From Antedon mediterranea (Eukaryota > Echinodermata > Crinoidea > Comatulida > Antedonidae): a stretch of DNA of 64,000 nucleotides. The position numbers and the translations under genes were made by a program. The notes under the pieces are model-generated. The model did no database searches and was not told the origin of the DNA. It saw nothing but the letters and a program-made list of their open reading frames with translations. The stretch covers positions 11,462,932-11,526,931 of the forward strand of contig NC_092679.1 in assembly GCF_964355755.1 (NCBI RefSeq). Reading direction: 5' to 3'. The first letter of the stretch is position 1. Each line of letters begins with the position of its first letter. Of the stretch, positions 30,757-64,000 are shown in pieces.

Positions 30757-31906
30757 CTAGATTTGAACTCGTCACTACGGACGAGTTAGGTTATCCGCAG
30801 TCCTATAGCCACGTGCACGTCATACGTTGGAATATTGCGCGCAGAAAAACGATTATGCCATTGAAAAAATGTGAGTGCGCTCTCTATTTTGTGTCACGTC
30901 AAGTGTATACGGTATACACTATATACCGTATACGTACTACATACAGTTCAGAATAGGTGAAAATAAGTGACCAAAGTTATTGACGCTTTTGCACATGATG
31001 ACGTCATAACAATTTTTAAAATGGTCAATCATGCGAAAGATAATTGATTGATATAGACAATATAAAGAAATTGAGGGCAATGGAATACGGATAAGTGGAG
31101 ATGCGCTCTATTAAATGTGATGAGCTATACGAAAGAGAAAAAAATCCTATATTTTATATTCGAGTGGCCATACGATGACGTCACAATGTCCTGATAGCCA
31201 TATTGATACATGATTCGATATCTACAACTCATCTACTACCAGAATATGTAATTATAAAAAAGTTTACCACGTAGTTTAGAATCTATGACTGTTTAAAAAA
31301 AGGCATAATTTTGACAAATTTTTGGACTTTTTCATCAAAATTGCGCGCAAATTGTTTAATTCTACGTGCTCGTATGACGAGATTTTAAGGCAAAATTGAT
31401 TGAAAATTGGTAAATATATTATAAAAGACAGAAAAAACAAAAATCAAGCAAAAAAAAGATGTTTTTGCGCTACGTGCGCACGCGCGCGTAAAAAAATTGC
31501 GCAAGCCTGGGAATTTTTGAAATGCTCAAAATGATATGAAACGCGTAGAAAATTGATTAGAAGTTGATTTTTTGCATTTTGAAATTTTAAACGCGCGTGC
31601 GCGCGTAACTTTCTGTGAAACATGCAATTTTTAATCCATAGAAAGTTTGCGCTTGATATGACTTAAATTTTCACAAAGTTTCAATACAAAATAACTTTCG
31701 GTTTTTAATCTATGATCAATCATTTAAATTCATAAAATCGCGCGTAACTTACGCTGCGCAACTCAAAATTCATAAAAAAAAGTTTCTTGCACATCTACAG
31801 CAACAGGGCAATCTTTTGACAAAGTTATACAATCATATGTTGGCCAGAGTTAGAGATACGCTGCGAACAAAATTCGTGGAAAGAAAGAAGAACATAGAAA
31901 AAAAAA
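30757..31906 (+). repeat. Array unit copy 3
   Basis: No 3' hairpin module. Shares private variants with copy 6 (TCCTATAGCC after the start, TTGCGCAAGCCTGGG in the CG-rich part) and looks essentially identical to it. Confidence 0.9.
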
Positions 31907-32114
31907 CTAGATTTGAACTCGTCACTACGGACGAGTTAGGTTATCCGCAGCCCAAAAGCCACGTGCACGTCATACGTTAGAATATTGCACACAGAAAAAC
32001 ATTATTATGACTACTATACTATACTATAGGTCCCTGGACCTATTTGTTTATCACAAATAGCCAATCAGTACTTAGTCTTATTTGGCCTGCTACATTATAG
32101 CAGTAGGTAGGAAA
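31907..32114 (+). repeat. Array unit copy 4, truncated and joined to foreign sequence
   Basis: Only about the first 100 bp match the unit. From about 32009 the sequence changes to unrelated DNA with small inverted repeats (AGGTCC/GGACCT, TATTTGT/ACAAATA), then copy 5 begins. Confidence 0.85.
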
Positions 32115-33389: not shown

Positions 33390-34551
33390 CTAGATTTGAA
33401 CTCGTCACTACGGACGAGTTAGGTTATCCGCAGTCCTATAGCCACGTGCACGTCATACGTTGGAATATTGCGCGCAGAAAAACGATTATGCCATTGAAAA
33501 AATGTGAGTGCGCTCTCTATTTTGTGTCACGTCAAGTGTATACGGTATACACTATATACCGTATACGTACTACATACAGTTCAGAATAGGTGAAAATAAG
33601 TGACCAAAGTTATTGACGCTTTTGCACATGATGACGTCATAACAATTTTTAAAATGGTCAATCATGCGAAAGATAATTGATTGATATAGACAATATAAAG
33701 AAATTGAGGGCAATGGAATACGGATAAGTGGAGATGCGCTCTATTAAATGTGATGAGCTATACGAAAGAGAAAAAAATCCTATATTTTATATTCGAGTGG
33801 CCATACGATGACGTCACAATGTCCTGATAGCCATATTGATACATGATTCGATATCTACAACTCATCTACTACCAGAATATGTAATTATAAAAAAGTTTAC
33901 CACGTAGTTTAGAATCTATGACTGTTTAAAAAAAGGCATAATTTTGACAAATTTTTGGACTTTTTCATCAAAATTGCGCGCAAATTGTTTAATTCTACGT
34001 GCTCGTATGACGAGATTTTAAGGCAAAATTGATTGAAAATTGGTAAATATATTATAAAAGACAGAAAAAACAAAAATCAAGCAAAAAAAAGATGTTTTTG
34101 CGCTACGTGCGCACGCGCGCGTAAAAAAATTGCGCAAGCCTGGGAATTTTTGAAATGCTCAAAATGATATGAAACGCGTAGAAAATTGATTAGAAGTTGA
34201 TTTTTTGCATTTTGAAATTTTAAACGCGCGTGCGCGCGTAACTTTCTGTGAAACATGCAATTTTTAATCCATAGAAAGTTTGCGCTTGATATGACTTAAA
34301 TTTTCACAAAGTTTCAATACAAAATAACTTTCGGTTTTTAATCTATGATCAATCATTTAAATTCATAAAATCGCGCGTAACTTACGCTGCGCAACTCAAA
34401 ATTCATAAAAAAAAGTTTCTTGCACATCTACAGCAACAGGGCAATCTTTTGACAAAGTTATACAATCATATGTTGGCCAGAGTTAGAGATACGCTGCGAA
34501 CAAAATTCGTGGAAAGAAAGAAGAACATAGAAAAAAAAAAAAAAGAAAAAA
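33390..34551 (+). repeat. Array unit copy 6
   Basis: No 3' hairpin module. Matches copy 3 throughout the body by eye, differing mainly in A-tract length at the end. Confidence 0.9.
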
Positions 34552-35705
34552 CTAGATTTGAACTCGTCACTACGGACGAGTTAGGTTATCCGCAGCGCAA
34601 AAGCCACGTGCACGTCGTACGTTAGAATATTGCGCGCAGAAAAACGATTATGCCATTGAAAAAATGTTAGTGAGCCCTCTATTTTGTGTCGCGTCTAAGT
34701 GTGTACGGTATACACTATATACTGTATACGTACTACATACAGTGCAGAATAGGTGAAAATAAGTGACCAAAGTTATTGACGCATTTGAACATGATGACGT
34801 CATCACAATTTAAAAAATGGTAGATTATGCGAAAGATAATTGATTGGCCTAGACAATATAACAAAATGGTGAGAAATGGAATACGGATAAGTGAAGATGC
34901 GCTCTATTAAATGTGATGAGCTATGCGAAAGAGAGAAAAATCCTATATTTTATATTCGAGTGGCCATACGATGACGTCACAATGTCCGGTTAGCCATATC
35001 GATGCATGATTTGTTATCTACAACTCATCTACTTCCGGAATCTGAAATTTTAAAAAAGTTCCCCACGGAGTTTAGAATCTATGACTGTTTTAAAAAAGGC
35101 ATAATTTTGACAAATTTTTGAACTTTTTCATAAAAAACGCGCGCAAATTGTTCAATTCTACGTGCTCGTATGACGTGATTTTAAGTCGAAATTGATTGAA
35201 AATTGGTAAATTTACTAGAAAAGGCTGAAAAAACAAAAATCAAGCAAAAAATTTATGTTTATGCGCTAAGTGCGCACGCGCGCGTAAAAAAATTGCGCAC
35301 GCCTGGGAATTTTTGAAATGTTCAAAATGACCTGAAACGCGTAGAAAGTTGATTAGAAATTAATTTTACGCATTTTGAAATTTTAAACGCGCGTGCGCGC
35401 GTAACTTTATGTGAAACATGCCATTTTTAATCCATAGAAAGTTTGCGCATGATATGACTTAAATTTTCACCGAGTTTCAATACAAAATGACTTTTTGTTT
35501 TTAATCTATGATCAATCATTGAAATTCATATAATTGCGCGTAACTTACGCTGCGCGTCTCGAAATTCGAAAAAAAAAATGTCATGCACATCTACAGATCC
35601 AGGCAAATCTTATAACAAAGTTATAGAATTATATGTTGGCTAGAATTAGAGATACGCTGCGAACAAAATTCGTGGAAAGAAAGAAGAATAAAGAAAAAAA
35701 AAAAA
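34552..35705 (+). repeat. Array unit copy 7
   Basis: Full-length body without hairpin module. Shares 3'-part variants with copy 8 (TTCACCGAGTTTC, GCTAGAATTAGAG). Confidence 0.9.
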
Positions 35706-44574: not shown

Positions 44575-44676
44575 ATGTCTGCTGAAAAAGAAAAAACAGT
44601 TACTTTTAAAGAAAATAATAAAGCTGATAAACAAGAAGAGAGACAAGAAGAGGAACAAAAAAAAAATAAAGACAAG
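44575..44676 (+). CDS. CNGA: CNGA coding exon 1 (N-terminus)
   Basis: 34 codons, start ATGTCTGCTG, very rich in Lys/Glu/Gln. Donor AAG|GTGAAA. An in-frame stop lies 36 nt upstream, so this ATG is the first in its frame unless an extra upstream exon splices in at a weak AG (44553). Confidence 0.8.
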
Positions 44677-47600
44677 GTGAAAATGCATAATGAGTATACA
44701 TCTGAGAAATCATGAACATTTATTACATGTCATCATTAGCATTGATTAGCCAGTAAAAGACGAAAAAGAGATTCTTTATCTAGTTACCATAAATCCAATT
44801 ATCTAGCTATCTATCAAGGAGAGAACGTAGGAAATCATTCGCCTATGAATATTATTCTATATTATTAGTTACCATTCGGCGTAAAAATCAGCCTTTATCT
44901 AATTACTGAAAACACAAAAAAACCATCAACTTTTCAAATTATTAGTTCAGTAACTCTTCTTGATTATTAATATTTAAAAGCTATTATCCATCTATTATTT
45001 GCATATAATATTGAACATATGGGTTCATAGTTCAAAATGTATTTACATTGCAAACATAATTTATGATAATTATGACAATTTAGATATTTAATTATAAATT
45101 AACGAACTGTAATCAAGTACTGTACTAATGTAATTTACTACTACAGGAAGATGGACAGAACGTTGTCACCAGGTTCAAAGTATACATCAATGTAAGTATT
45201 AATAAAGTCATAGAATAATTTCCATCATTTGTCAACAAATAAAGTGAAATGTAGTCACCTAATTAATATTGCTCTTTATTTCAAGGCAAAGATTGAAAAC
45301 CAAGAGTTTTATGTCAATCCTGAAGGTGACGTCATCTTTTTGTGGATGGTAAGATTGATAACAATGTTAAACACACATGTAATTAGTTGACAACACTTAA
45401 TGTGTTGCAACTTAATTAATATCTTATCTTTACGATATTGCGATATTGCAAATTAACCATAGGGTGGCAGAATTTGCTGTCACTTCAAATCTAGTTTGAA
45501 TAATTTGTATTTTAATAACATAACATTGTTGTGGTCTTTCTCAAAGCGACTGGTAACCGTTGCAGTGGTATATAATTTTTGGATGATCATTTTACGAATC
45601 GCATTTAAAGAAATGCGTGAAGAGGTTTGTATATTAATTATACATTTCGTTAATATAATTATATTATTTAATTCCATTTGAGTTTATTCAAAAGAGTATA
45701 CTCTTAGTTTGCTTATATCAAAAAAGTTATTGATATTTGGAATGAGTTAATTATTGATATAATTTAGCCCTAATTAGTTAAAATGTTTAAATTTCATATG
45801 TATCTAACAGCAAAAATACTCGCCAATTACAGGATGAAAATGTAATTCCTGATTCATATTCCTTTCAGTATTAATATAAGATGTAATATTTCATAACATG
45901 ACCGAATATACTGTAAATCAAAGAATGGGTTGCAACAAATACGGTTTTTGTAACCTAATCTAAGAATCGATTTATGTTTAATAATCACGCACAATTTGTT
46001 ATTAAATGAGTTTGTCTATTATTACTATTTTTGTAATAAACTGAAATTATTGACTATAATATGTTGTAATTTACAATTTCAACAACACTACTTTCCTAAT
46101 AGGTTACACATCCATTTCAACAACACTACTTTCCTAATAGGTTACACGTCCATTTCAACAACACTACTTTCCTAATAGGTTACACATCCATTTCAACAAC
46201 ACTACTTTCCTAATAGGTTACACATCCATTTCAACAACACTACTTTCCTAATAGGTTACACATCCATTTCAACAACACTACTTTCCTAATAGGTTACACG
46301 TCCATTTCAACAACACTACTTTCCTAATAGGTTACACATCCATTTCAACAACACTACTTTCCTAATAGGTTACACATCCATTTCAACAACACTACTTTCC
46401 TAATAGGTTACACATCCATTTTAACAACACTACTTTCCTAATAGGTTACACATCCATTTCAACAACACTACTTTCCTAATAGGTTACACATCCATTTCAA
46501 CAACACTACTTTCCTATAGGTTACACATCCATTTCAACAACACTACTTTCCTAATAGGTTACACATCCATTTCAACAACACTACTTTCCTAATAGGTTAC
46601 ACATCCATTTCAACAACACTACTTTCCTAATAGGTTACACATCCATTTCAACAACACTACTTTCCTATAGGTTACACATTCATTTCAACAACACTACTTT
46701 CCTAATAGGTTACACATTCATTTCAACAACACTACTTTCCTAATAGGTTACACATCCATTTCAACAACACTACTTTCCTAATAGGTTACACATCCATTTC
46801 AACAACACTACTTTCCTAATAGGTTACACATCCATTTCAACAACACTACTTTCCTAATAGGTTACACATCAATTTCAACAACACTACTTTCCTAATAGGT
46901 TACACATCCATTTTAACAACACTACTTTCCTAATAGGTTACACATCCATTTCAACAACACTACTTTCCTAATAGGTTACACATCCATTTCAACAACACTA
47001 CTTTCCTAATAGGTTACACATCCATTTCAACAACACTACTTTCCTAATAGGTTACACATCCATTTCAACAACACTACTTTCCTAATAGGTTACACATCCA
47101 TTTCAACAACACTACTTTCCTAATAGGTTACACATCCATTTCAACAACACTACTTTCCTAATAGGTTACACATCCATTTCAACAACACTACTTTTCTAAT
47201 AGGTTACACATCCATTTCAACAACACTACTTTCCTAATAGGTTACACATCCATTTCAACAACACTACTTTCCTAATAGGTTACACATCCATTTCAACAAC
47301 ACTACTTTCCTAATAGGTTACACATCCATTTCAACAACACTACTTTCCTAATAGGTTACACATCCATTTCAACAACACTACTTTCCTAATAGGTTACACA
47401 TCCATTTCAACAACACTACTTTCCTAATAGGTTACACATCCATTTCAACAACACTACTTTCCTAATAGGTTACACATCCATTTCAACAACACTACTTTCC
47501 TAATAGGTTACACATCCATTTCAACAACACTACTTTCCTAATAGGTTACACATCCATTTCAACAACACTACTTTCCTAATAGGTTACACATCCATTTCAA

Positions 47601-50600
47601 CAACACTACTTTCCTAATAGGTTACACATCCATTTCAACAACACTACTTTTCTAATAGGTTACACATCCATTTCAACAACACTACTTTCCTAATAGGTTA
47701 CACATCCATTTCAACAACACTACTTTCCTAATAGGTTACACATCCATTTCAACAACACTACTTTCCTAATAGGTTACACATCCATTTCAACAACACTACT
47801 TTCCTAATAGGTTACACATCCATTTCAACAACACTACTTTCCTAATAGGTTACACATCCATTTCAACAACACTACTTTCCTAATAGGTTACACATCCATT
47901 TCAACAACACTACTTTCCTAATAGGTTACACATCCATTTCAACAACACTACTTTCCTAATAGGTTACACATCCATTTCAACAACACTACTTTCCTAATAG
48001 GTTACACATCCATTTTTAGAGTGCATTTACCACTGTTTATACATTCTATAGCCTAATCATAAACATTTGACGATTTTATTTTTGTGAATGAATTTGCGTA
48101 TATCATTGTATTGTACCATTGCCATTCACAGGAGCTTTTAAATTACACAATTCCGTAAAAATGGTCAAAGAAACATTATTAAAAAAAATATGTAAATTGT
48201 CCTTACTACATTATTATTTTAGTAATCATTTTGTATGTATTGTTGTATAAGTTATATGTTCTTTTTAAGGCTTTCTTTAGACGAATATTCGGAAGTGTAG
48301 ACATATTCTGTGATGCTGTCTGTATTTTTGATATTTTGTTTAGTAATCGAGTTGCCTACCTTGAAGAGGGATTAATTGTAAGTATTCTTTTTGAATGAAT
48401 TTATATTGTATTATCAAGAATAGGCTTTTGCCTTGAGATGAAAGCAAGATTAATTCATTTCTGACGTAAGTTTGAGAATTATGTAAATGATGCTGGAGCA
48501 ACAACAATGCTGATGTTAAGATTTGTCTGTAGGATCACATATTTGACGGAAATTTGTCTGAAACAAATTCGAGTGTTTTTGGTAAAATTTGAGTGTCGCT
48601 GCCATTACTAAAATATCCTAAACCTTTCTAAAATTGTCTAAATAAATATTTATTAATTAATATTTGTATGTTTTTTTTAAAGGAGAATCTTTACACGTTA
48701 TCTTCTCTTCTGGTATCTCCACTGATAACATATCGATACCCACTGAATTGTACTGTATGACTATGAAGTAAAATTTTTCTCAATACTTAATTTGTAGGTT
48801 AAGGATCCTAGAAAACTTTCTGCAAATTATCGTAAAAAGCTAAGCTTCAAATTGGATATTTTGGCAGTTATACCACTTGGAACTATAGCGTTATTCATTG
48901 GAGGTAATTCATAAATTATTTACTGCAGTGTTTTTACATAAAATATTGGTTTATCCTCGTTTTATCCCAAGTTTCAACACAATAATTAAGCACATCGGCT
49001 GATAAATGTTGTTCTACAATCTATAGGGCACTTTTTCACTAATGGCCTATTTATTTTTTTTTCTAATTTCAGATATCAAAATAACAGTATTCACATAGTG
49101 GGCCTATTTAAATTAGTTTCTTGCACCAGAATCAATTCATTAATATGCAGTGTTTATAGTAATTATTATTTGTACTGCTCCATATTTGATAGTCGAAAAT
49201 ATATTTTTCATAGCACACGAACTAATAAAAATCTCCATTTTGTGAGCATTTCAGTGGCTAATTAGTGTTTTAGATCCCATTAACGTTACCAAGACGATAT
49301 ATTATTTTTGTAAACATTCACGTTATTTGCATGGCTTTCAAGAATCGATATTGAAAGGTACGGCTTTACATAAAATGACAGTTATGACAAAGAAATGATG
49401 GTAACAAAAAAACCTGTGGTACTACAATTTGTATCTAAATGACTTCATTAGTTTGTAGTTTAGACAGCAACAATTATCTAGAATATTCAAAGAAATTTTA
49501 GTGAATAATTATTAAAAATAGTCTCTATGCAATACAATAATTCATTCCCGACGCGTTGCTTGACTTTATTAACTTTTGGCTTCTAGATTTTGATAAACTT
49601 TGTACTGAAATTTAGCAATATAGTCATACAAATGAATTAATATCATATAAAGAAAATATATATCTTAAATTATATAAGCATGATAAATATATTTGGATGA
49701 CTTATTAATAGTTATTGTGTCCTGTCATTAAAATGGCTGAATTAAAAAATATTTCTATAATAATGTAGGTATATATTTATTTCCATTTTAAAAAAATAAA
49801 TATATTTGTAATAATAAAGAAATAAATCATCGTGTTTCATTTTAGGAGCATCTGATATAGTACATATCCATTTTGACTTAGATAATGGTAAGTAAAAAAA
49901 CAATGTTGTGGGTTGGTAAAAATCGATCTTAAATGTGAATATGCATAAATTAATATGTAATTTTATTACAGATCACATAATAATTCCGTTGCTGCGTTTA
50001 CCTCGTTTACTCAAACTACATTCAATGATATACTTCTTTGACGTCTGTGACAGGTTAGTGTTAATATTATATATATATTATATAATATAATAATAATGAT
50101 GAAGGGCTAGTGTTTACTTTATCGTTTTGATTTAGCTTTTCGCTTTTTATTTTTGTATCTCCATTGAGATCCAGCCACTGATACCCACAGCATTGTCATT
50201 TTTTCAGTAATTTGCCTTTGGATTTATATAATATAAATATATATTATTCATTTTTTGCTACTGTTCTTTTAAAAATAACTAAGGTAATTCACCTTACCAA
50301 TTTAAACTTATAATAATTTGGGTAAATACAATTTAAAATAGTATATTATATAAATGGACAGCTGAAGAAAGTGATATTCCTCTTTAACTGCATTCGAATC
50401 AAATACATTTCGATTGCCACTTTTTTCATCCATCAAATTTAACTTCAATGTCTAAAATAAGCAAAACCTAGTAAAATTAATTCGTTTTTTGGTCTTTTAT
50501 ATGCAACAGATGTTGAAAATTCTCAATAACTTAACACTTTAAAGCTTTAAATAGCAAAGAAATTGCTCAAATATGTTATGTTTTTCTGTATAAATAAACA

Positions 50601-53600
50601 TTAATTTAAATTTTTTAACGAAATACGTTCTACTAAACTATGTTGATCAATCCAGACATGACCTAAGCCCATTAAGAATATTAACATGTCTTACCAGTGC
50701 TCATCTCTACAGCATGTCTTACCAGTGCTCATCTTTACAGCATGTCTTACCAGTGCTAATCTCTACAGTATTCGAACACCGTAAAAGAATAAACTGTACA
50801 CACATTCCTAGCAAATTATGATTACATAAAAACCCCCAAATGCATTTAGAAAAATAGTAGTGAAATAAATAAATGGTTAGAAATATAAACCAATATTTGT
50901 TTTAATTCATAGTCGAACCAGTAATCCAAATCGTCTACGAGCGTTCAAGCTAATTATGTACCTAGGAATTGTAATTCACTGGATTGGATGTGTATACTAC
51001 ATGATATCAGACGTAGGTGTAAATATTTATGCTATAGGATTAGATTTTTGTGATATATGATGTATAGACGGTATGTTCGAAACGTTCATTTGTGAATAAT
51101 CTCATCAATGGTATTAACAATTAAAAAAATGTGCTCTGTTCAAATAGGCATCAGAAAGTGAGAATATCACAGTAAACATCAACTGACTTCTGACAAAATT
51201 TCCCTCTGTAAATCACTAAATTCAACCATTTGATATACCTCAATATACAATTAAGCTTCTACAAATTAAAATTTATTTACCTTTTCTCGATACAAGCACA
51301 TATTGTATAGTGATCTCATATACTTCATGATAGTATAGGAGAAAATGTTAAAAAACATTTTATTAATTGCATCTTCATTCTGCAAATGAAAAAAAAACGA
51401 TATCAACTAAAGGAAATGACGCATTGTCTGATTTCATTTCAGTATGAAGGATTTGGTACGAATAGCTGGGTATATCCTTTGCACGAAGACTGGCAAAACA
51501 CTAACTTTTTAAGGTAGGAACAACTAAATGTATATTTTTTTGTAAAGTAAAATGTGTAACTATCTATACGTTATTTCTAAAGAGTGATTACTTTCAAAGA
51601 AATTTTACATTAAATTGCACACATTATTGACACTTACCATACTTTACTATAAATATATTTGTGATCTGTTATTAGTTTTGACTAAAAGAAATGGTTTATG
51701 TTTTTAATAAATTCATAAAATCAAGGCGGTTATGGTAAGGGTAAATATAAAGTTTCACTGTATTTCGAAATTTTGTTATGATTCTGAACAACAAATCATA
51801 TTTTTCTAGATACTTTGGGAGTACGGAACCTGAACTTTTGTTATAGTGATTAGGTTCACTTTTAGGTTCCTGCCTATTCCCTTAGTTTCTGTGTTTTGTT
51901 TGTTTGTAACTGGTTTTTGGCAATAAATAATAATAATAATAATACCGTAACCATAACTCAAACAATACGATTCAAATAATTAACACTGTTAAAAGGCCTA
52001 GGTAATTTTCGGTTTATCATTATGAGGCTATTGTCTGGGTGTATCTGCGCATGTTTCTACTACATCCCCATTACCATGTCCCGTAGCATCTAGTTAATTA
52101 TTAATATTAATTTTAACTATTACTATGATTTCTTTGTGGTCTTATTCTCTTCTCTTCTTATTGTAATGACAACCTTAAATACAAACTACTTCGTGTATCA
52201 ACACAATGGCAAAAATTAATTATGATATAATATCAGTACAAAAATTACATAGACATTATGAAAATCTTAAACACCACAATTCTATTTTTCAGAAAGTATA
52301 TCACCTGTGTATACTGGTCAATAATGACCGTCACAACAATAGGAGAAACAGAGTGTCCAGATACTGACATTGTAAGTTGATAAACTACCAACAACTTGGT
52401 ACCTTTTCATTTTATTATTTTTGTATCTCTACAGCAAGTATATTCGATCGATGTTTTGGTCAATTGTTACTCTGACTACTATTGGTGGCACAAATTCTCC
52501 GATAACAAAACTTGTGAGTAATAGTATGGTATATCGCGGGACGCATACTTTATATTTTGGAGAACAAAACATATTACTGTATCGGATTGAGTTTGTAACC
52601 AAGGGATAACGTAACCTTAAACACAAGCTCCCATCAAATTATATTCTTTTTAAATTTTTTTTTTGAAATTTCATTTGAATTTTTATTTTCATTGATTAGG
52701 CGCGCCTACATTAATAAAATATTAATAGGAACAATTATTCATCATTATGGATTAATATAGTAATCAAATAAACGATATACTATATGAATAAAATAAGTTA
52801 ATAATACAGTTGTATACATTAATAGCGAATTTTGGTAGTTTATCTTTTTGAATTTTGAATAATATATTATAATATTATGATCACTAATGATCATTATTTA
52901 TTATTAGGTCTTTGTATGAATCATCCGCGACAATGCAATTTAATTCTGATGTTTAAAATCATGTGTAATTTTACAGGAATATGTGTTTACTGGTGGAACT
53001 TACTTGATTGGTGTGTTCCTCTTTGCTGCTGTTGTTGGAAACGTTGGAGATGTAATCAGCAACATGAATGCCGCCAGACAAGAATTTGTAACCAAGTTAG
53101 TATTTAATTAAATGGTAGACCCATTTTCATATTGGTGTCGATTCCATACCACCATCCCATATCATGATGTCATATACATTTTGGTACTGTCTACGAACGT
53201 TTGTTGTCAAGCTTCTTTCAACTACTGTATTAAGGGTAAATCCCCGATCAATTAAATTTATATCGAAAAAGGAGTTTCGTAAACTCACTAATTGTGTGTT
53301 CTGTTTATAATTAAAAAAAAAGAGATGTCTGACAATGTTGTGATGGCAAACCACACCTACACAGCCTATCGACATTTAAGTTAAGAACGGCGGTGTTTTG
53401 TTTTGCCGACAGATATATCATCAATTACTTTAGTTAGATTTGTTTGTCATTGTCTAATTATTCTGATGAATAACCATCGGGTGTGAATAAATAGAACATT
53501 GTTTTCAGGATGGATTCGCTAAAATTTTACATGAATCATCGAAAGGTTCCCGAGGATCTACAAAGCCGAGTAAAGAAATGGTCTGAATACGCCTGGACAA

Positions 53601-56600
53601 GGTAGGCATAGAATGAGTTCTCATGTTCCCTAGTTTGCTTATTGCCTTTACCAAGAAGGTTCTAAAATCACATCGGCTTATGTGTGCACGGAACGTTAGT
53701 ACACAGTGCAGTGAGTTTAATCTGCAATATGTTTTCTTATTTAGAACTCAGGCCCTGGACGACCAATGCTTCTTAGATATTCTGCCTCCTAGGCTGCGCT
53801 CCGAAATAGCTAAACATGTTCATCTTGAAACATTGAAGAAGGTAATTTTTTCCCCACATAATTTCCAAAAAATAAAAGAAACGAGTGTGTCCACATTTAG
53901 TATAAAAGGTAGAACAAGACTATTTCAGCCCACTAAGACGCAACACAAGCACAACGCAAACGAGTTGATTATTGGCAAGCAAACGATTCCAATAATGTAT
54001 CGATTGTGATTAGAAAAATGGCTTGTGTTCCCATGCATCGTTGCGTTGATTTCTAAGCCTAGTGGGAACCAAAAATTACTGATTGCAAAAAGCATGTTTG
54101 TCTAATATTTGGGAGACACGCCCTTTGATGATTCTTTTTTTATGTTTCATTGAAAAGGAAAATAGTTAATGCAGTACCTGTGATTTACTTTATCCTTAAT
54201 GTTATTAAAGGTAAAAATATTTGAAGATTGTGAGCAGGGTCTACTCTGTGAGCTCGTACTCAAGCTACGCTCTCAAATATACCCACCTAGCGACTACATC
54301 TGTAGGAAGGGAGAAATTGGCCGTGAAATGTATATTATTAATCATGGGCGTGTTTCAGTAAGTTTTCTTTAGAGCAGCCTACATTATTAATTAAAAATTA
54401 TTTCAGATGAAAACAAAATGGTACGGTAAGTCACATACATTTACAGATGTATGGTACAATTTTGATAAATTAGTTGCCTAAACATTAAGTTATAATTACC
54501 GGTACTACCATAACTACCATAATTATTAATTAATAATATCCTGAATCTTTGAATGCCTAATGCTGTGAAACCTCTAAACGCTGTGCATATTATTACCCTG
54601 GTCATTTTTGGATTAAACATACTCCTATAATACAGATATTAATCAGCGCAAAGTTCCCATTTGTACATTTCTTGTGACTAGCGTTGGATTCGAACCCATG
54701 AGCCAACAAACTGCGCCACACGCCCTTAAAATGCCTATACGAGTGCCCCTAATGTATCGCCAGTACTTTTGAAAACTAACTGTAGGTCATGATCCAAGAT
54801 AAAGACACTGGTCAGAATGTAGTGGTAGCAACATTGCGAGAAGGTAACTACTTTGGAGAAATTAGTCTGCTGAAATTAGACGAAGGACAGAACAGGCGAA
54901 CGGCAGATGTGGTGTCAGTCGGTTACTCAGAGCTTTTGTGTTTGTCTAAGAAAGATCTAATGATGGTAAAGTGTACAGTAATTGTAGTTTAAAATCTTGT
55001 TTTAACAGATAATACACATATTACGAATATAGGATAGACATAATGTAACATTTAGAAAATCCATAATTCATTCGTTGAACCTTCTCGGTGGTAACATTAC
55101 ATAAAACGTATCCTTATATCGTGCCATGTATTATTTGCTACTATCTATTGAAGCTATTATTATACGTTCAGCCCTTTGTAAATATTTTTGTTCGACTGGT
55201 CTGGTTATATCAAAATCCAACTTCTAGTGTGTGTCGTCTAATAGGCCTAATTGCTTTACTTCGAGACGAAATTCGGTCTTTTGTAATGTACCACAACTTT
55301 TATTCATTCATTGCTTGATTGTTCATACATAATAATAATAATTCTTAAAAGTCCCAACCTTTGTTATTTGATTCAAGATATAAATGGCGGAATAGTTTTA
55401 AATACAACTTTAGAACACGCCTCATATCTTTCAAATCAAAAATATTCTATAGGCCTACAAATACAAAACATTCATTATTTATTTAAAGAAGGCCTAATAT
55501 ATTTTCAAAATTTTGATATTTAAAAAGGACATAATATAGCATTATGTATTAATATAAAACATAATGTATACATACATTAATTAATTGATATTTGTATTTT
55601 CTCCTGTTAGGCTTTGGTCGAATACCCGGATGCAAAAAAAGTGTTGGAAAAGCATGGCAGAGATAGGATGGAAAAGAACAAAGAAGCCACGTAATAATCT
55701 TATTACTATCATCAACACTATTATTTCAATTTACATATTTTTATGATAATTATAAAATCCTAATTTTCAAATCAAATACTAAATATAGGTATGTATAATT
55801 ACTCTCGACTATGTAAGTATACGGGATTAACCAAATTACAATTATTATTTAGGTCCTAATCACATCTTAATCTGTATACAGTATAGGCACAATATATGCT
55901 ACTTCTTAAGAATAAAGATGACCAACCTACTATGAAATATCAAGGCCTGAACCTAATTTTAAAAATAATTAAAATGATACAAAGATGAAATCCTGTATCA
56001 CAGAATATGATACTGTAAAACATTAAAAGATAAATTACAGAAAAACATAATGATGTTTTAATGCAAAAAATCTATTTGAATATGCCTACAGTTACAAATT
56101 ATTATTTTTATAATGTCTTATTTGCCACTATAAAGATTGCAAAGAAGAAAATCAGACGCAAATTTAGTTGTTCAAGAAAATGCAGACGATCGATCAAAAG
56201 ATCCAAGAGCTCTGATTGCCAAACAGCAGACAACTGCAGAAATATTGAGATCAGCAATACAAGGTGATTAGCAATTAACAACAAGCTGCTGTTCAGCTTT
56301 AGAAATGTGTCATTATTAAAAGTATTATATATAAAATATAATTTGTTTTAATGCCAGTGTGTTGGTAAGTTTAGTTAATAAAATACCAACATTTTGTTTT
56401 ACTTAGGAAAAGAAATGACAGAACTTCGACATATTATCCACGAATTGAGATCATTTGACAGCATGGTAATTTATTAGATTTTCTTATTAGTAAATAAAAA
56501 TGTCTATGCTTTAATTTATACTGTAGGGTTTTAGAAGCAATGTTTATCTAAAATATACAGAGCAAACAAGATTGAACAAAACGTGTTTTTTTTGTAAACG

Positions 56601-57668
56601 ATCCTAAAAACACACACACTGTCGTGGACAGACGTAATGGCGCCGTAGTTGGCTGCCGATGAAACGATGGGACCCTTAGGCCTATAGGGGAGAAGAATGT
56701 TGTTGAAAAGGTGTAACATCTTAGTCCACCACAGCGCGTTGGATCACTTGTTGCTGGAATTGGCGCTTTACAAATTCGAATATATTATATATTATTATAT
56801 CCTGACAGAGTAATAGTCCGATTAAATAAAATGATAATTAATATTATTTTTAACACATAAAGTACACACAATTGAATCTTAATCAAGAATAATAAAAATT
56901 GTTTTTACTTACAATTTCATTTTTTAGAGTACAAAAGATAAAATTGATCAGCTATCTCTCAAGGTAAATGTTATGACATATTTAAGTTAAGCACAAGCAC
57001 CTGTTATGATGTTAATATTCAAATTATATAAGGACCTAGGTTGTTTTTTTGGCAATCATTTTATACACACATACATTTTATTAATTTATTATCGATGTGA
57101 TTTGAATTGGTTTGACTTGTTTTGCTTTTTTAAGTGTGATCAGTTAAAAACAAAACTGACAAAGCGTAACATAGATCTACGACGAGCGTTGATGAGAGTA
57201 TCGGAACTTGAGAATAAAGTTAACAGCAACTTTAGTAGTTCTCGACAAAGATCATCGCAGAGATTTCAAGAACTTCAACAATATCGTTATTTTAATAACA
57301 GAAAAAGGAAGTCTAGCAGTGGAGAGGAATCTTTTAAATACGAAGAAAGTAATAATATCCCATCGAACAAATCGCAAATAAGAAGAAAGTCAAAACGACA
57401 TACCGGTATAAAAGTTCAAAGTAAGCAACAAAAACTCAAAATTAGAAATATTATTATACCGGGTATCTCTATTAATGGAGAACTACAAGAGGAAGCAAGA
57501 GAGTTTGTTTTAGAAGTGGAAGCTGATGAACTGAAAATGTCAGATACATCGGAGGAGCTCAATGAACTCCCTCTATCTGGTGCTTTGCTCTCGGTTAGTA
57601 ACTTGGAATTAGAAGCCAAAGGGGCAGAATCTGACATGTGCTTTAGTGACAGTTGGGAAAGTGACTGA
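44575..57668 (+). CDS. CNGA: Cyclic nucleotide-gated cation channel, alpha type (21 coding exons per transcript)
   Basis: join(44575..44676, 45147..45191, 45286..45348, 45547..45624, 48270..48377, 48798..48903, 49846..49887, 49972..50053, 50913..51012, 51443..51513, 52293..52371, 52977..53095, 53509..53601, 53745..53841, 54211..54357, 54786..54965, 55611..55690, 56145..56263, 56407..56465, 56928..56963, 57135..57668) = 2340 nt, 779 aa. Order: basic/acidic N-terminus, S1 (71-96), S2 (exon 5), S3 (exon 6), S4 with RLPRLLKLH (exon 8), S5 (exon 9), pore (exons 10-11), S6 (exon 12), C-linker (exons 12-14), cNMP-binding domain (396-530) and a C-terminal coiled coil with a charged tail. The phosphate-binding cassette is FGEISLL with R482-T483, as in cGMP/cAMP-gated channels. 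Filter TTIGET (E284) is alpha-type. Known family role: tetrameric plasma-membrane cation channel opened by cGMP/cAMP in sensory cells or sperm. Exon 11 has an alternative copy at 52435..52513. Confidence 0.96.
45147..45191 (+). CDS. CNGA: CNGA coding exon 2
   Basis: 15 codons ([15 protein letters not shown]), acceptor ACTACTACAG, donor GTAAGT, phase 0 on both sides. Confidence 0.85.
45286..45348 (+). CDS. CNGA: CNGA coding exon 3 (pre-S1)
   Basis: 21 codons including [11 protein letters not shown], matching the CNG pre-S1 pattern 'P-x-G-D-x-x-x-x-W'. Donor GTAAGA. Confidence 0.88.
45547..45624 (+). CDS. CNGA: CNGA coding exon 4 (S1)
   Basis: 26 codons, hydrophobic S1 with the family's VxYNxW-like pattern ([14 protein letters not shown]). 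Acceptor TCTTTCTCAAAG; the donor is weak (GAG|GTTTGT) and opens onto the minisatellite intron. Confidence 0.88.
46076..48016. repeat. 38-bp minisatellite, about 51 copies
   Basis: The unit AACAACACTACTTTCCTAAT + AGGTTACACATCCATTTC is repeated head to tail with very few variants (CCTATAGG deletions at about 46513 and 46665, ATTTTAACAAC, CTTTTCTAAT). It fills most of CNGA intron 4 between the S1 and S2 exons. Every unit contains a pyrimidine-rich TACTTTCCTAATAG|G that looks like a weak splice acceptor. Confidence 0.98.
48270..48377 (+). CDS. CNGA: CNGA coding exon 5 (S2)
   Basis: 36 codons with S2 ([14 protein letters not shown]) and VAYLEEGLI, the conserved entry to the S2-S3 loop. Acceptor TTCTTTTTAAG, donor GTAAGT. 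Confidence 0.93.
48798..48903 (+). CDS. CNGA: CNGA coding exon 6 (S3)
   Basis: Encodes [11 protein letters not shown] (conserved CNG S2-S3 loop) and S3 ([17 protein letters not shown]). Ends in phase 1. Confidence 0.94.
49846..49887 (+). CDS. CNGA: CNGA coding exon 7 (S3-S4 loop)
   Basis: 42-nt micro-exon in phase 1-1 ([13 protein letters not shown]) with acceptor GTTTCATTTTAG and donor GTAAGT. Skipping it would keep the frame. Confidence 0.85.
49972..50053 (+). CDS. CNGA: CNGA coding exon 8 (S4)
   Basis: Encodes the S4 segment [18 protein letters not shown], with fewer evenly spaced basic residues than voltage-gated K channels, as is usual for CNG channels. Donor GTTAGT. Confidence 0.93.
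50685..50768. repeat. Three tandem copies of a 28-bp unit
   Basis: CATGTCTTACCAGTGCTCAT + CTCTACAG repeated at 50685, 50713 and 50741 with two substitutions. It lies in CNGA intron 8, about 145 bp before exon 9. Each unit ends in an acceptor-like CATCTCTACAG. Confidence 0.92.
50913..51012 (+). CDS. CNGA: CNGA coding exon 9 (S5)
   Basis: Encodes [17 protein letters not shown] and [14 protein letters not shown], matching the CNG TNYPNxFR...HWNACxYY pattern of S5. Confidence 0.94.
51443..51513 (+). CDS. CNGA: CNGA coding exon 10 (S5-P turret)
   Basis: Encodes [19 protein letters not shown], matching the CNG 'GFGxDTWVYP' turret. Acceptor ATTTCATTTCAG. Ends in phase 2, which both versions of exon 11 fit. 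Confidence 0.94.
51840..51952 (+). mobile_element. Possible retroelement 3' tail
   Basis: TTAGGTTCCTGCCTATTCCC ... GTTTGTAACTGG is followed by GGCAATAAA and a (TAA)n tract. The order fits a truncated non-LTR element tail in CNGA intron 10. Family unknown. Confidence 0.35.
52293..52371 (+). CDS. CNGA: CNGA exon 11A: pore helix and filter, TIGE version
   Basis: 79 nt, phase 2 in, phase 0 out. Encodes [19 protein letters not shown]. Glu284 is at the position of the alpha-subunit filter glutamate that controls divalent binding. Acceptor CTATTTTTCAG, donor ATT|GTAAGT. The following residues EYVF come from exon 12, as in CNGA proteins. Confidence 0.95.
52435..52513 (+). CDS. CNGA: CNGA exon 11B: alternative pore exon, TIGG version
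   Basis: 79 nt, same phase and length as exon 11A, only 63 nt further on. Encodes [20 protein letters not shown], 14 of 26 residues identical to 11A. Gly replaces the filter Glu, as in CNGB-type subunits. Acceptor TATCTCTACAG, donor CTT|GTGAGT, no stop in frame. Use of both exons (158 nt) or of neither breaks the frame, so the two behave as mutually exclusive exons. Confidence 0.9.
52977..53095 (+). CDS. CNGA: CNGA coding exon 12 (S6 and start of C-linker)
   Basis: Encodes [37 protein letters not shown]: the S6 gate and the highly conserved ISNMNAAR motif. Donor is in phase 2 (AA|GTTAGT). Confidence 0.96.
53509..53601 (+). CDS. CNGA: CNGA coding exon 13 (C-linker)
   Basis: Encodes [29 protein letters not shown], the C-linker helices A'-B'. 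Acceptor TGTTTTCAG. Confidence 0.95.
53745..53841 (+). CDS. CNGA: CNGA coding exon 14 (C-linker)
   Basis: Encodes [20 protein letters not shown], matching the CNG LPxKLRAEIAxxVHLxTL block. Donor GTAATT. Confidence 0.95.
54211..54357 (+). CDS. CNGA: CNGA coding exon 15 (cNMP-binding domain, first half)
   Basis: 49 codons, from [19 protein letters not shown] to [16 protein letters not shown]. Near-canonical alpha-type sequence. Acceptor TTATTAAAG, donor GTAAGT, phase 0. Confidence 0.96.
54672..54727 (-). mobile_element. tRNA-derived SINE fragment
   Basis: On the minus strand, an A-box-like TGGCGCAGTTTG (54707-54718) is followed closely by the B box GGGTTCGAATCCAAC (54683-54697). The spacing is too short and the arms do not pair as a tRNA, so this is more likely a degenerate SINE head within CNGA intron 15. 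Confidence 0.4.
54786..54965 (+). CDS. CNGA: CNGA coding exon 16 (phosphate-binding cassette)
   Basis: 60 codons. Contains [20 protein letters not shown], with the Arg that binds the cyclic phosphate and the Thr associated with cGMP preference, then [16 protein letters not shown]. Confidence 0.97.
55611..55690 (+). CDS. CNGA: CNGA coding exon 17 (C-helix of the binding domain)
   Basis: Encodes [20 protein letters not shown], matching the conserved EYPDAK C-helix. Acceptor TTCTCCTGTTAG, ends in phase 2. Confidence 0.96.
56145..56263 (+). CDS. CNGA: CNGA coding exon 18
   Basis: Phase 2 in, phase 1 out, fully open; Asp/Gln-rich ([20 protein letters not shown]). Two AG acceptors 9 nt apart (exon start 56136 or 56145) both keep the frame, adding or omitting three residues. 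Confidence 0.8.
56407..56465 (+). CDS. CNGA: CNGA coding exon 19
   Basis: 19 full codons ([18 protein letters not shown]), amphipathic and coiled-coil-like. Acceptor TTTTACTTAG, donor GTAATT. Confidence 0.82.
56928..56963 (+). CDS. CNGA: CNGA coding exon 20 (micro-exon)
   Basis: 36 nt, 12 codons ([12 protein letters not shown]), phase 0 on both sides; skipping it would keep the frame. Acceptor TTTCATTTTTTAG, donor GTAAAT. Confidence 0.78.
57135..57668 (+). CDS. CNGA: CNGA coding exon 21 (C-terminal tail)
   Basis: 177 codons plus stop (TGA at 57666). Begins with a heptad-like stretch ([26 protein letters not shown]) that with exons 19-20 forms a predicted coiled coil, as in the CNGA leucine-zipper region. 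Then comes a Ser/Arg/Lys-rich part and an acidic end ([11 protein letters not shown]). The frame is open upstream of 57135, but the phase-0 acceptor TTTGCTTTTTTAAG sets the boundary. Confidence 0.88.
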   Translation, partial: CDQLKTKLTKRNIDLRRALMRVSELENKVNSNFSSSRQRSSQRFQELQQYRYFNNRKRKSSSGEESFKYEESNNIPSNKSQIRRKSKRHTGIKVQSKQQKLKIRNIIIPGISINGELQEEAREFVLEVEADELKMSDTSEELNELPLSGALLSVSNLELEAKGAESDMCFSDSWESD

Positions 57669-58635: not shown

Positions 58636-59205
58636 TTGTGCAAACAACCTCAATTGTGCAAACATGTTGCCCTCAATATGCAAACCACCATTATTTGTGC
58701 GAACATGTTGCCCTCAATGTGCAAACCACCACATTTGTGCAAACATATTGCCCTCAATGTGCAAACAACCATATTTGTGCGAACATGTTGCCCTCAATGT
58801 GCAAACAACCACATTTGTGCAAACATATTGCCCTCAATGTGCAAACAACCATATTTGTGCAAACATGTTGCCCTCAATGTGCAAACCACCATATTTGTGC
58901 GAACATGTTGCCCTCGATGTACAAAAAACCACATTTGTGCGAACATGTTGCCCTCAATGTGCAAACCACCATATTTGTGCGAACATGTTGCCCTCAATGT
59001 GTAAACAACCACATTTGTGCAAACATATTGCCCATCGGAGTCCATTGTAATCCAACCTTTTCAGCTCTTGCTGCTGGTTGGAATTTGATGCTTTTATACC
59101 TTAATAAATAAATAAATAAATATTGCCCTCAATGTGCAAACAACCACATTTGTGCAAACATATTGCCCTCAATGTGCAAACAACCACATTTGGCAAACAT
59201 GGCAC
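58636..59205 (+). repeat. 40-bp minisatellite in the left arm
   Basis: About a dozen units with A/G variants (GCAAACATATTG / GCGAACATGTTG). Because 40 is not a multiple of 3 and the unit has few stops, it produces overlapping ORFs in several frames (CANMLPSMCK-type repeats), which are not proteins. Confidence 0.93.
59034..59121 (+). mobile_element. 88-bp retro-insertion with target-site duplication
   Basis: A foreign 88-bp segment ending in TTAATAAATAAATAAATAAA interrupts a minisatellite unit and is flanked by ATTGCCC on both sides (59027-59033 and 59122-59128). This fits a strongly 5'-truncated LINE or SINE 3' end. Confidence 0.75.
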
Positions 59206-60327: not shown

Positions 60328-63300
60328 TTTCGTTTCGTTTATTTATTTTTTCCACTCACTTATATATATATGTATATATCATTTACATTTACATAACATA
60401 TATTAAATGTGGGTGGATGGAAGTCACAGTAAGTTCACTGAACTTTAAGTCGTGACTCCCGTATGCCTAAGTATACTAACATTGCTACAGAGTAGACTAA
60501 AATATGAATATATAATAGTGAAAGTACATAAAATAAAGAAATAAAAAAATTTTAAATTATAGAAGTTAAGATAAACCAGGCAATTATATAATATATGATA
60601 AAAGGGATAATGATAACAATTAGAGTACAATATGAAATATAATTAAATATGGTATAATAACAAGTATAACGATACAATGTAGCGGAGATTATTGAATACC
60701 AGGGTGAAGGATTTAATGCCATGTATCACCACCAAATAAATAAGGATAAAAGATCGGCGAAAAATTATGTAGCATATTCTGACACCATTTTGTGTTTGAA
60801 ATTAGATTTAAAACTAGAAAAGGAAGATTTCTGTTTAAGTTCATTTGAGAGTGAAGTCCAAAGTTTGGGACCAAAATAATACATAAAAAATCGTCGAGCC
60901 TTAACATTTAAATTATCAAAGATATAATTGTTAACAGAGGATCGGGTTTTATAGGAATGGCGTTCGTCAATTCTTGTAAATAAAGCATTAAAATGTGAAG
61001 GCAGTAAATTGTTAGATAAACGGTACATAAATGAGGCAACTTGTAATTTATTTAAATCATAAATGTTTAAAACGTTAAATCTTTTAAAAAGTAATTTTGT
61101 ATGGGCTCTAAATGATTCTCCCGCGCAAATCCGAAGTGCACGTTTTTGTAGTTTAAAAAGGCGGTCAATTTGAGTTTTCTCTAGACTTGTCCAGGGGCAT
61201 AACGTATTAAATTTATCTAGAGTAATTGCCCAACATAAATTGGCATAAGAAAGGTAAGGCAAAACTAAAGTATTATAAAGGGTTAATAAGGTTTTTTGAG
61301 GGAAGATATGTTTTAATTTGTTCAATATTCCAACATTTCTAGAAACTAGATTACTGATTTTATTTATATGTAGTTTCCAAGTCAGAGAGGCATCTATGGT
61401 TACTCCTAAAAATTGTGTTTCATTAACTCGTTTGATCATTTTATTATCAATGTATATTTGTTCATTTAAAGAATTTGAAATTTTACGTTTAGAAAATATT
61501 ATATAGTTCGTTTTGAATGTATTAAGAGTTAATTTATTGTGTTTGAGCCAATTTGAAACTTTAAGTAACTCATCATTGACAATTTTAAACAAGGTATTTA
61601 ATTTAGGATGAGAGAAAAAAATATTTGTGTCGTCAGCAAATAAGATAAAATTTAGTAATTTAGAGCTGTTTGGTATATCGTTAACAAAAATCAGGAATAA
61701 GAGTGGTCCAAGAATCGATCCTTGGGGAACACCACAGGTTAAACGGGAATAGGAAGAGTTAAAATTGTTTAAGGAAGTAAACTGAACACGATTGGAAAGG
61801 TAGCTTTTAATTAGTTTTAAAGGAAGGCCTCTGATACCGTAATTTGAAAGTTTATGAATTAAAATATCGTGGTTAATAGTATCGAAGGCCTTAGATAAAT
61901 CAAGGAAAATGCCAACAGAAAACTCATTTTTACTCAGGGCAATTGTAATTTTGTCAAAAATATCTAATAAAGCAAGATCTGTTGAATACTTTTTCCTGAA
62001 ACCATATTGGCCTTTAAATAAAATGTTATGTTTAGTTAAAAAGGAAGAAATTCGATTATGCATTATTTTTTCAATTAATTTTGAGAAACAAGGAAGTAGG
62101 GAGATTGGTCTGTAGTTATTGAAATGATGAGGATCTTCTTTCTTGTAGATAGGGATGACTTTAGCTATTTTAAAAGAGTCAGGAAAAATACCGGTTTGAA
62201 AAGAAGTATTAAAAATGTGAGTTAAGGGTTTGCATATAAAATTAGAAACACGTTTAATAATTTTATTGGAAAACCCATCAAACCCAGGAGATTTATTATC
62301 TTTGAGGGAAAGTATTATACTGACAACTTCATGCTCGGTTACAGGACTAAGGAGGAGAGAGTGCACACATGGACGAGGTAGGGTAGAAGTATAATTATCA
62401 TTATCCGACACATGTATTTTGTTAACTAAATTTGGCCCTATACTAGTAAAATAATTATTGAATTCAGTTGCAATTTGTTGAGGATTATTTAATTCAATGT
62501 CATTGTTAATAAAGTGAGAAGGAAACGGTTTACGAGATTTCTTGCCAAGGACTCCATTTATTGTTTGCCAGGTTTTTTGGATGTTATTTTTATGGAATTC
62601 AAATTTGTCACTGAAGTAATTCTTTTGGGCAGTACGAAGGATTTTGGTAAGTACATTTTGATATTTAACATATTTATCTTTGTCCTTTTGCTTTTTAGAT
62701 ATAAGAAATGTTTTATATAATTTGTGTTTTTTGTCGATAGATTTAATTAAGCATTTAGTTATCCAAGGTTTTTTTTCTTTCCGAATATTTCGTCTGGAAC
62801 GAGTGGTTTTAATGTTGTTATTATATAATGTACTAAATATGTCGTTGAATAAAGCGTATGCCTCATTGGGTTCATTGGAGTTATAAATACTAGTCCAGTC
62901 AACATTTGACAAATCATTACTTAAGGCAGAAATTAAAATATCATTGACTTTTTTTATGTATATATATTTTGATTTAGGTTTCAGGTGTTGGAGAGGTTCT
63001 GATTTATGTACTAACAAGAAAACAGGAAAGTGATCCGAGATGTCCGAATATAGAATTCCGGAAGAAATGTTATCGTATAGATTATTACAAAAAATATTGT
63101 CGATTAAAGTTGCAGAATTACGCGTAATTCTAGTTGGCCTAGTAATAAGAGGATAATAATTTGATTGAAATAAAGTATTAACAAAATCAGAAGTACCTTT
63201 ATGTGTTTTGGAATTTAACAAGTTAATATTAAAGTCTCCTGAAATATATGCTGTTTTTTTCTCATTATTAATGGTGTCAATTAAATTAGAGATATCTTTA

Positions 63301-64000
63301 TTAAATGTGTTAATGGATAATTCAGGCAAACGATATACTACTCCAAGGATTATGTTTTTTGGTTGTGCATCGATTTCAATGAAAAGAGATTCCGAACCAT
63401 TAGTAATGATAAATGATAAATCAGGGCGAAGAATATATTTAAATCTCTGGTGTAGGTAAATGGCAACGCCTCCTCCTGGTCTATCAGCTCGTGAAACATG
63501 CAAGAGGTTATAATTGGGAATATTATAAAAGGAAAAAGGCGTATTATGATTAAAAAAAGTTTCGGTGAAGCATAGTGCTGAGAATTCATGGTTAATAGCA
63601 CCTACGCATACATTGATATCGTTAAAATGTTTAACAAGACTGCGTGCGTTTAAGTGAAAGATACTAAATGAATAATCTTGTGTTGAATATTTGTTGTTAA
63701 GACTATCGATATATTCATAGGCACAAGATTCAATATTTTCGGAAAATAATTGGGCATTGTTGTCATTAATAATATCTTTAAAATTAATATCAAAAGGGTT
63801 AAAAATTAAAGAATTAAATCTATCAAAGTCAATTCTATCGTCACAAAAGTAATAGTGAATGACATGCAAGAATTCATCATTATCAATAATGTGATTAAAT
63901 GGGAATGCATCTATATTGTCAAAAGGGTCCATGAGAATATCTAACGATACATAATGTGATCAGTTTATTCAATAGTATGTAATAAAAGATGCCTGGTAAT
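60328..64000 (-). mobile_element. CR1/jockey-group LINE, 3' portion, cut by the window edge
   Basis: The minus-strand element ends near 60328 in (AAATAA)AACGAAACGAAACC after a roughly 430-nt 3' UTR. It contains one intact EN-RT ORF (60765-63932). The 5' end, and any ORF1, lie beyond the window. The ORF has no stop or frameshift, which implies recent insertion. Confidence 0.85.
60765..63932 (-). CDS. LINE endonuclease/reverse transcriptase polyprotein
   Basis: 1055 aa. The N-terminal third is an APE-type endonuclease (FHLNARSL near the start, SGDFNIN with Asp at about 233, then SDISDHFPV). The central part is a reverse transcriptase: IYKKEDPHHFNNYRPISLLP, GFRKKYSTDLAL, FLDLSKAFDTINHDIL, GVPQGSILGPLLFLIF and the catalytic FADDT at 765-769. 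The C-terminal region has no RNase H motif that I can see. The product would nick target DNA and copy the element's RNA by target-primed reverse transcription. EN plus RT without RNase H and the RT motifs fit the CR1/jockey group; clade-level assignment is uncertain. Confidence 0.93.
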   Translation of the reverse strand: MDPFDNIDAFPFNHIIDNDEFLHVIHYYFCDDRIDFDRFNSLIFNPFDINFKDIINDNNAQLFSENIESCAYEYIDSLNNKYSTQDYSFSIFHLNARSLVKHFNDINVCVGAINHEFSALCFTETFFNHNTPFSFYNIPNYNLLHVSRADRPGGGVAIYLHQRFKYILRPDLSFIITNGSESLFIEIDAQPKNIILGVVYRLPELSINTFNKDISNLIDTINNEKKTAYISGDFNINLLNSKTHKGTSDFVNTLFQSNYYPLITRPTRITRNSATLIDNIFCNNLYDNISSGILYSDISDHFPVFLLVHKSEPLQHLKPKSKYIYIKKVNDILISALSNDLSNVDWTSIYNSNEPNEAYALFNDIFSTLYNNNIKTTRSRRNIRKEKKPWITKCLIKSIDKKHKLYKTFLISKKQKDKDKYVKYQNVLTKILRTAQKNYFSDKFEFHKNNIQKTWQTINGVLGKKSRKPFPSHFINNDIELNNPQQIATEFNNYFTSIGPNLVNKIHVSDNDNYTSTLPRPCVHSLLLSPVTEHEVVSIILSLKDNKSPGFDGFSNKIIKRVSNFICKPLTHIFNTSFQTGIFPDSFKIAKVIPIYKKEDPHHFNNYRPISLLPCFSKLIEKIMHNRISSFLTKHNILFKGQYGFRKKYSTDLALLDIFDKITIALSKNEFSVGIFLDLSKAFDTINHDILIHKLSNYGIRGLPLKLIKSYLSNRVQFTSLNNFNSSYSRLTCGVPQGSILGPLLFLIFVNDIPNSSKLLNFILFADDTNIFFSHPKLNTLFKIVNDELLKVSNWLKHNKLTLNTFKTNYIIFSKRKISNSLNEQIYIDNKMIKRVNETQFLGVTIDASLTWKLHINKISNLVSRNVGILNKLKHIFPQKTLLTLYNTLVLPYLSYANLCWAITLDKFNTLCPWTSLEKTQIDRLFKLQKRALRICAGESFRAHTKLLFKRFNVLNIYDLNKLQVASFMYRLSNNLLPSHFNALFTRIDERHSYKTRSSVNNYIFDNLNVKARRFFMYYFGPKLWTSLSNELKQKSSFSSFKSNFKHKMVSEYAT

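Follow-up and report, generated by a model that had tools for sequence, protein, structure and literature searches.

Tandem Candidate Alternative Pore Exons with Glutamate and Glycine Filters in a CNGA-Type Channel Gene of the Crinoid Antedon mediterranea

Here we describe a CNGA-type CNG channel gene of Antedon mediterranea in which two adjacent exons, 11A and 11B, encode the same pore helix and filter segment, with a Glu at the filter position in 11A and a Gly in 11B. Comparison of the two exons makes it likely that both are functional alternative exons. The analysis covers a stretch of 64,000 nucleotides (assembly GCF_964355755.1, contig NC_092679.1, positions 11,462,932 to 11,526,931), here referred to as the window; coordinates are window positions unless a contig is named.

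RESULTS

Gene model and exon layout. The gene lies at 44575..57668 on the plus strand and has 21 coding exons per isoform, which encode 782 amino acids followed by a stop codon. The model was obtained by joining exons by hand at GT/AG borders, and it forms a single open frame with either 11A or 11B. The features referred to below are as follows.

44575..57668, plus strand: whole gene, a CNGA-type subunit (open frame, Pfam domains, CNGA1 as the top PDB match)
51443..51513, plus strand: exon 10, preceding the pore helix; phase 2 at its end, with the letters AG
52293..52371, plus strand: exon 11A, pore helix and filter; 79 nt, an Arg codon and then 26 residues
52372..52434, plus strand: spacer between 11A and 11B, 63 nt, with two candidate branch adenines (38 and 43 nt downstream of the 11A donor)
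52435..52513, plus strand: exon 11B, alternative pore helix and filter; 79 nt, a Ser codon and then 26 residues
52977..53095, plus strand: exon 12, S6, common to both isoforms; VVGNVGDV, with the CNGA Gly at the CNGB arginine-gate column
54211..54965, plus strand: exons 15 and 16, cyclic-nucleotide-binding domain (Pfam match)
56928..57668, plus strand: exons 20 and 21, C-terminal tail, in which the CLZ domain was not detected

Exons 11A and 11B have the same phase, and each is preceded by AG and followed by GT. The last two letters of exon 10 begin a codon that becomes Arg with 11A (AG-A) and Ser with 11B (AG-C). Either exon alone gives one open frame of 782 residues. When both are included, the first stop is a TGA across the junction of 11B and exon 12 (positions 52513 and 52977-52978), and when both are left out, a premature TGA is found at 53005-53007. 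A preliminary description of this DNA had proposed that the reading frame enforces exclusivity; this holds insofar as both or neither exon leads to an early stop, but the stop reached with both is this junction TGA and not, as had been claimed, a TAA in exon 13. The lengths (79 and 79 nt), the 63-nt spacing, the phases, and the identity of 14 of 26 residues given there were exact when rechecked. The fourth intron of the gene (2,645 nt) consists mostly of a minisatellite at 46076-48015, with about 51 copies of a 38-bp unit that match at 98%.

Family placement and the other CNG genes of the genome. Isoform A matched the Pfam families Ion_trans (4e-20) and cNMP_binding (1.2e-17). When residues 1-643 of isoform B were compared with solved structures, the scores were 449.9 bits for CNGA1, 319 for CNGA4, 282.3 for CNGB1, and 273 for CNGB3, and the isoform B chain is hence not nearer to CNGB than to CNGA. 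A further match of 384 bits was to the chain of 6wej, listed just as a CNG channel, which we take to be TAX-4. The product combines an Ion_trans and a cyclic-nucleotide-binding domain, and its best matches among solved structures are CNG channels, as expected of a CNG subunit. No match to the CLZ domain (PF16526) up to an E value of 1 was obtained with either isoform or with the tail piece alone, while a CNGA3 segment used as a control was found at 1.3e-18.

The genome (354,431,138 bases in 18 contigs) was searched with residues 1-593 of isoform A, giving 28 matches with an E value of at most 0.001, most of which are exons of the window gene; as 11B did not appear among the matches as a row of its own, a lone, diverged pore exon elsewhere would also be missed by this search. 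The locus at C5:5510173 is a classical CNGA, with 595 bits to CNGA3 and a CLZ domain at 4.6e-21, and its pore, TIGETPPPETD, lies within a 595-residue open frame; the comparable core of the window gene scored 404 bits against CNGA1. A paralogue at C3:37065494 has a TIGD filter, and its pore, which is 57% identical to the C5 pore and 38% identical to the C8 pore, appears CNGA-like, judged by the pore alone. The locus at C8:10181313 is a CNGB (112 bits to CNGB3 versus 60 to CNGA2, over 99 residues joined from two exons). Its pore (10181313-10181468, minus strand) keeps the pore-helix Lys and the S6 Arg (GQMRD) and has the filter TIGN, that is, an Asn where CNGB1 and CNGB3 carry Gly. Five weaker CNG matches fell on C1, C7, and C11, four of them in the C-terminal half of the query. 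Of the four CNG genes found, three thus have the filter residues E, D, and N, and the window gene has E in one alternative exon and G in the other. No second pore exon was found at the C3, C5, and C8 loci, where 9.9 to 10 kb gave one pore place each at E values of up to 0.1. Judged from its sequence, the window gene is a second CNGA-type gene with no detectable CLZ domain, and it may be a CNGC or CNGD, as these subfamilies are named by Lagman et al. 2022 (PMC9803222).

Homology of 11A and 11B and constraint on their coding sequences. With 11A as the query, tblastn found 11B in the 64-kb window at 1.3e-6; no further convincing pore-exon copy was found in the window by this method (two matches of 11B had E values of about 0.08). 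The two exons are identical at 45 of 79 nt, and the same codon is used at 5 of the 14 identical residues. Their differences are distributed over the three codon positions as 8/6/19, so that 19 of 33 fall on the third position (binomial p = 0.0036). The synonymous proportion of differences is close to saturation (pS 0.80), with a pN of 0.31 and a dN of 0.40. In a drift null in which one copy was mutated to the observed nucleotide distance, none of 20,000 simulations yielded an open copy with at least 14 identities. In a harsher null, in which 11A accepted synonymous changes only and 11B drifted, 13 of 20,000 did so, and a stop codon was present in 72% of the drifting copies. These nulls are simple, with no tree and only 78 nt, and 33 differences in 78 nt are little data; nevertheless, both simulations indicate that coding constraint acted on the pair during most of its divergence. 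The pair alone would also be compatible with a recent end to this constraint in 11B.

We defined 10 conserved pore columns, each kept in at least 7 of 9 other CNG pores, the nine references being six CNGA and CNGB rows from solved structures and three pores from the same genome. Exons 11A and 11B each match 8 of these 10 columns, though not the same ones. The conserved Leu before the filter is kept in 11B and lost in 11A, the conserved Tyr is kept in 11A and is a Phe in 11B, and one conserved Pro is lost in both. The tblastn match and the two sets of simulations point to a resemblance beyond chance. The initial proposal of tandem homologous pore exons with a Glu-to-Gly filter swap is borne out.

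Filter chemistry. The net charge of the segment after TIG is -4 in 11A and +1 in 11B, compared with -1 in CNGA1 and 0 in CNGB1. The acidic filter entrance that marks classical CNGA subunits is present in 11A and absent from 11B, while the Gly entrance that marks CNGB is found in the 11B isoform only. According to the sections of PMC10761061 that deal with the pore, CNGB subunits differ in three respects, namely, a Gly in place of the filter Glu, a pore-helix Lys or Arg that faces the filter, and an S6 Arg. At the pore-helix column (K841/R403), 11B has a Val and 11A a Met, and at the S6 gate column (R880/R442), both isoforms have the Gly contributed by the shared exon 12. When the filter column is excluded, 11A and 11B are equal in their identity to the three CNGB rows (10, 11, and 10 of 26 each). 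When it is included, 11B is slightly nearer to CNGA1, CNGA2, and CNGA3 (13, 12, and 14 of 27) than to the CNGB rows (11, 12, and 11).

A true beta isoform is therefore ruled out for 11B, as the pore-helix Lys/Arg and the S6 Arg are both missing. The preliminary description had suggested that one gene makes an alpha-like and a beta-like pore. Of this, the Gly filter of 11B stands, but apart from the filter, its match to CNGB is only equal to that of 11A, and the two other marks are lacking; the notion that 11B is beta-like overall is not supported by the alignment above, and the genome has its own CNGB. On this alignment, the 11B isoform is a subunit of the alpha type whose filter residue is of the beta type and whose outer filter is neutral to positive. 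In the CNGA/CNGB context, the exchange of the filter Glu for Gly is described as giving fewer charges and a weaker Ca2+ block (PMC10761061, in the part cited above), and by analogy, 11B would be expected to bind Ca2+ less strongly at the filter entrance and to be blocked less.

Splice signals and the spacer. Splice sites were scored with a matrix built from the introns of the gene itself. The 11B acceptor scored 7.74 bits (7.53 for 11A), and the 11B donor was the weaker of the two, with 5.64 bits (7.92 for 11A). In a leave-one-out analysis, the 20 donors of the gene ranged from -0.07 to 11.2 and its 20 acceptors from -0.95 to 10.98, and 11B is inside both ranges. In the intronic background, 7.6% of 526 GTs and 5.5% of 399 AGs scored at least as high as the 11B sites, so that these sites, which had been called good, are better termed acceptable, not outstanding.

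The spacer measures 63 nt, compared with a minimum of 84 nt among the other 20 introns of the gene, although introns of about 60 nt are spliced in many invertebrates. By the pattern yUnAy, branch adenines are predicted at distances of 38 and 43 nt from the 11A donor; another match, at 9 nt, was set aside as too close to be a likely branch point. In the five shortest other introns, candidates within 13 to 59 nt of the acceptor have donor distances of 66 to 152 nt, a contrast that arises largely because the spacer is short. A donor-branch distance of about 50 nt, a threshold derived from vertebrate genes, is given in the relevant passages of PMC7969005 as the limit below which both complexes cannot assemble, and mutually exclusive exon pairs that use this limit are described there. 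Steric exclusion of 11A-to-11B splicing through the short spacer is plausible on this basis. RNA pairing of the spacer, or of 11A plus the spacer, with introns 10 and 12 did not go beyond that of shuffled sequences in four comparisons (lowest fraction, 0.11). As the best duplexes were no better than shuffles, RNA docking sites were dropped as evidence for exclusion.

Genomic neighborhood. A paired-box exon is located at 18570-19217 on the minus strand (PF00292 at 1.7e-67), about 25 kb to the left of the CNG gene; from its sequence, we take the gene to be Pax1/9. A possible C-terminal exon of it, at 2763-3299 on the minus strand, has no domain above the cutoff. The part of PMC11175523 that concerns the pharyngeal cluster of deuterostomes places cnga between msx and pax1/9. 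Here, the position of cnga is taken by a gene other than the classical CNGA with its CLZ domain, and a search of the 9.9 kb to the right of the window found no Msx homeobox. Downstream of the CNG gene, at 60768-63932 on the minus strand, there is an uninterrupted LINE-type open reading frame with reverse transcriptase and endonuclease domains. Four similar open reading frames of 93 to 111 amino acids (YDLN..LKI.KKKF..) are present on the plus strand at 29284-29565, 30443-30748, 31657-31980, and 34290-34625; a Pfam scan of one of these gave no family at the cutoff. A 40-bp tandem repeat with about 10 copies at 58637-59033 is open in all three plus-strand frames, and the open reading frames over it are probably repeat driven and not genes.

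DISCUSSION

The arrangement is best explained if the pore exon of a CNGA-type gene without a CLZ domain was duplicated in tandem long ago and both copies were kept as alternative coding exons, one of which would be picked per transcript by splicing. Exon 11A would give an acidic filter entrance with Glu, and 11B would give an entrance with Gly. The spacer would be too short to be spliced, its predicted branch adenines being less than about 50 nt from the donor, and if so, 11A and 11B would compete and errors would yield nonsense transcripts. In 11B subunits, binding of and block by Ca2+ and Mg2+ at the outer filter would be weakened. More tentatively, subunits of both kinds might mix in tetramers, with the splice ratio grading divalent block, although we hold this to be less likely than not. 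An equally tentative proposal is that a CNGA-type gene lacking CLZ supplies its own filter-modifying partner, 11A and 11B subunits joining in variable proportions, so that the choice of exon might set divalent block and Ca2+ entry without CNGB. This reading would fit a suggestion made in part of PMC9803222, namely, that coexpression of CNGB with CNGA subunits that lack CLZ is unfavorable and that another CNGA-type subunit takes the role of CNGB.

Other explanations have to be weighed against functional alternative exons. The weaker donor of 11B would suit a defunct or decaying duplicate that splicing seldom or never includes. Its splice sites are intact, however, with length and phase exactly kept, and the substitution pattern is hard to obtain by drift, considering that only 13 of 20,000 simulated pairs remained open with at least 14 identities and that 72% of the drifting copies acquired a stop; we regard this explanation as improbable. 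The premature TGA that results from both exons or from neither could also mean that 11B (or 11A) is mainly a poison exon, with nonsense transcripts lowering the channel level and the second protein being incidental. Conservation of the pore sequence is not required of a poison exon, whereas 11B matches 8 of the 10 conserved columns and has a length and phase that permit a clean in-frame swap, which makes such a role very unlikely. Lastly, an incorrect gene model or an assembly error is hardly credible, as the remaining exons join in one frame around 11A or 11B and the genome of 354 Mb has a single occurrence of the 11A filter motif; an assembly duplication would show far more identity than 45 of 79 nt and is excluded by this divergence.

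One possibility falls within the preferred explanation of two functional exons. Both isoforms may be made in separate cells and form homotetramers only, so that one gene would give two channels. Mutually exclusive exons are commonly chosen in a tissue-specific manner, which would favor this arrangement, as would the CLZ trimerization domain of CNGA not being detected in the window gene, and we consider it a serious possibility, if somewhat short of an even chance. Functional homomers are not formed by CNGB and CNGA4, as stated in a passage of PMC10761061, but the filter is not the only difference in those subunits.

Several known systems resemble parts of this arrangement. NALCN has tandem, mutually exclusive pore-loop exons (15a/15b and 31a/31b), as described in sections of the work by Senatore et al. 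2013 (PMC3557258), where exon 15 pairs are reported for flatworms, molluscs, annelids, echinoderms, and hemichordates. As in the CNG pair, one filter residue is swapped (E or K) and the acidic exon is upstream, but the residue pair in those sections is Glu/Lys, in contrast to Glu/Gly here. NALCN is a single four-domain chain, so that one exon alters one of four filter positions, whereas a CNG channel is a tetramer, so that the swap can alter zero to four. By this analogy, the CNG pair would be an alternative-filter device of the NALCN type that sits in a channel made of four subunits and uses another pair of residues. Vertebrate CNGA/CNGB heteromers likewise mix subunits with Glu and Gly filters, but from separate genes and with a CNGB that has the pore-helix Lys/Arg and the S6 Arg, both absent here (PMC10761061, same sections). 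Exons 4a/4b of OGDH and alpha-tropomyosin, as treated in parts of PMC7969005, are tandem alternative exons with a branch point less than about 50 nt from the upstream donor; they are not channel pores, and their branch points were mapped, whereas ours are predictions from a five-letter pattern. CNGC and CNGD are CNGA-type genes without CLZ that exist beside classical CNGA and CNGB (Lagman et al. 2022, PMC9803222, in part). The sections of that article considered here make no mention of a duplicated pore exon, and the words "exon" and "pore" were not found in its main text. In agreement with the preliminary description, which knew of no CNG gene with such an arrangement, none with alternative pore exons was found in the open-licence literature, as judged from titles and the beginnings of abstracts.

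Among the main determinants of divalent block in CNG channels is the filter glutamate, and in vertebrate photoreceptor channels, Glu and Gly subunits encoded by separate genes are combined (both from the pore sections of PMC10761061). If the reading proposed here is correct, a single gene would arrive at a Glu/Gly mixture by another path, splicing, and would offer a natural setting for testing filter stoichiometry with one gene. An alternative filter in the style of NALCN would then also have arisen in a channel that is a tetramer, in which one exon swap can alter as many as four filter positions, and splicing could thereby switch the calcium handling of the channel.
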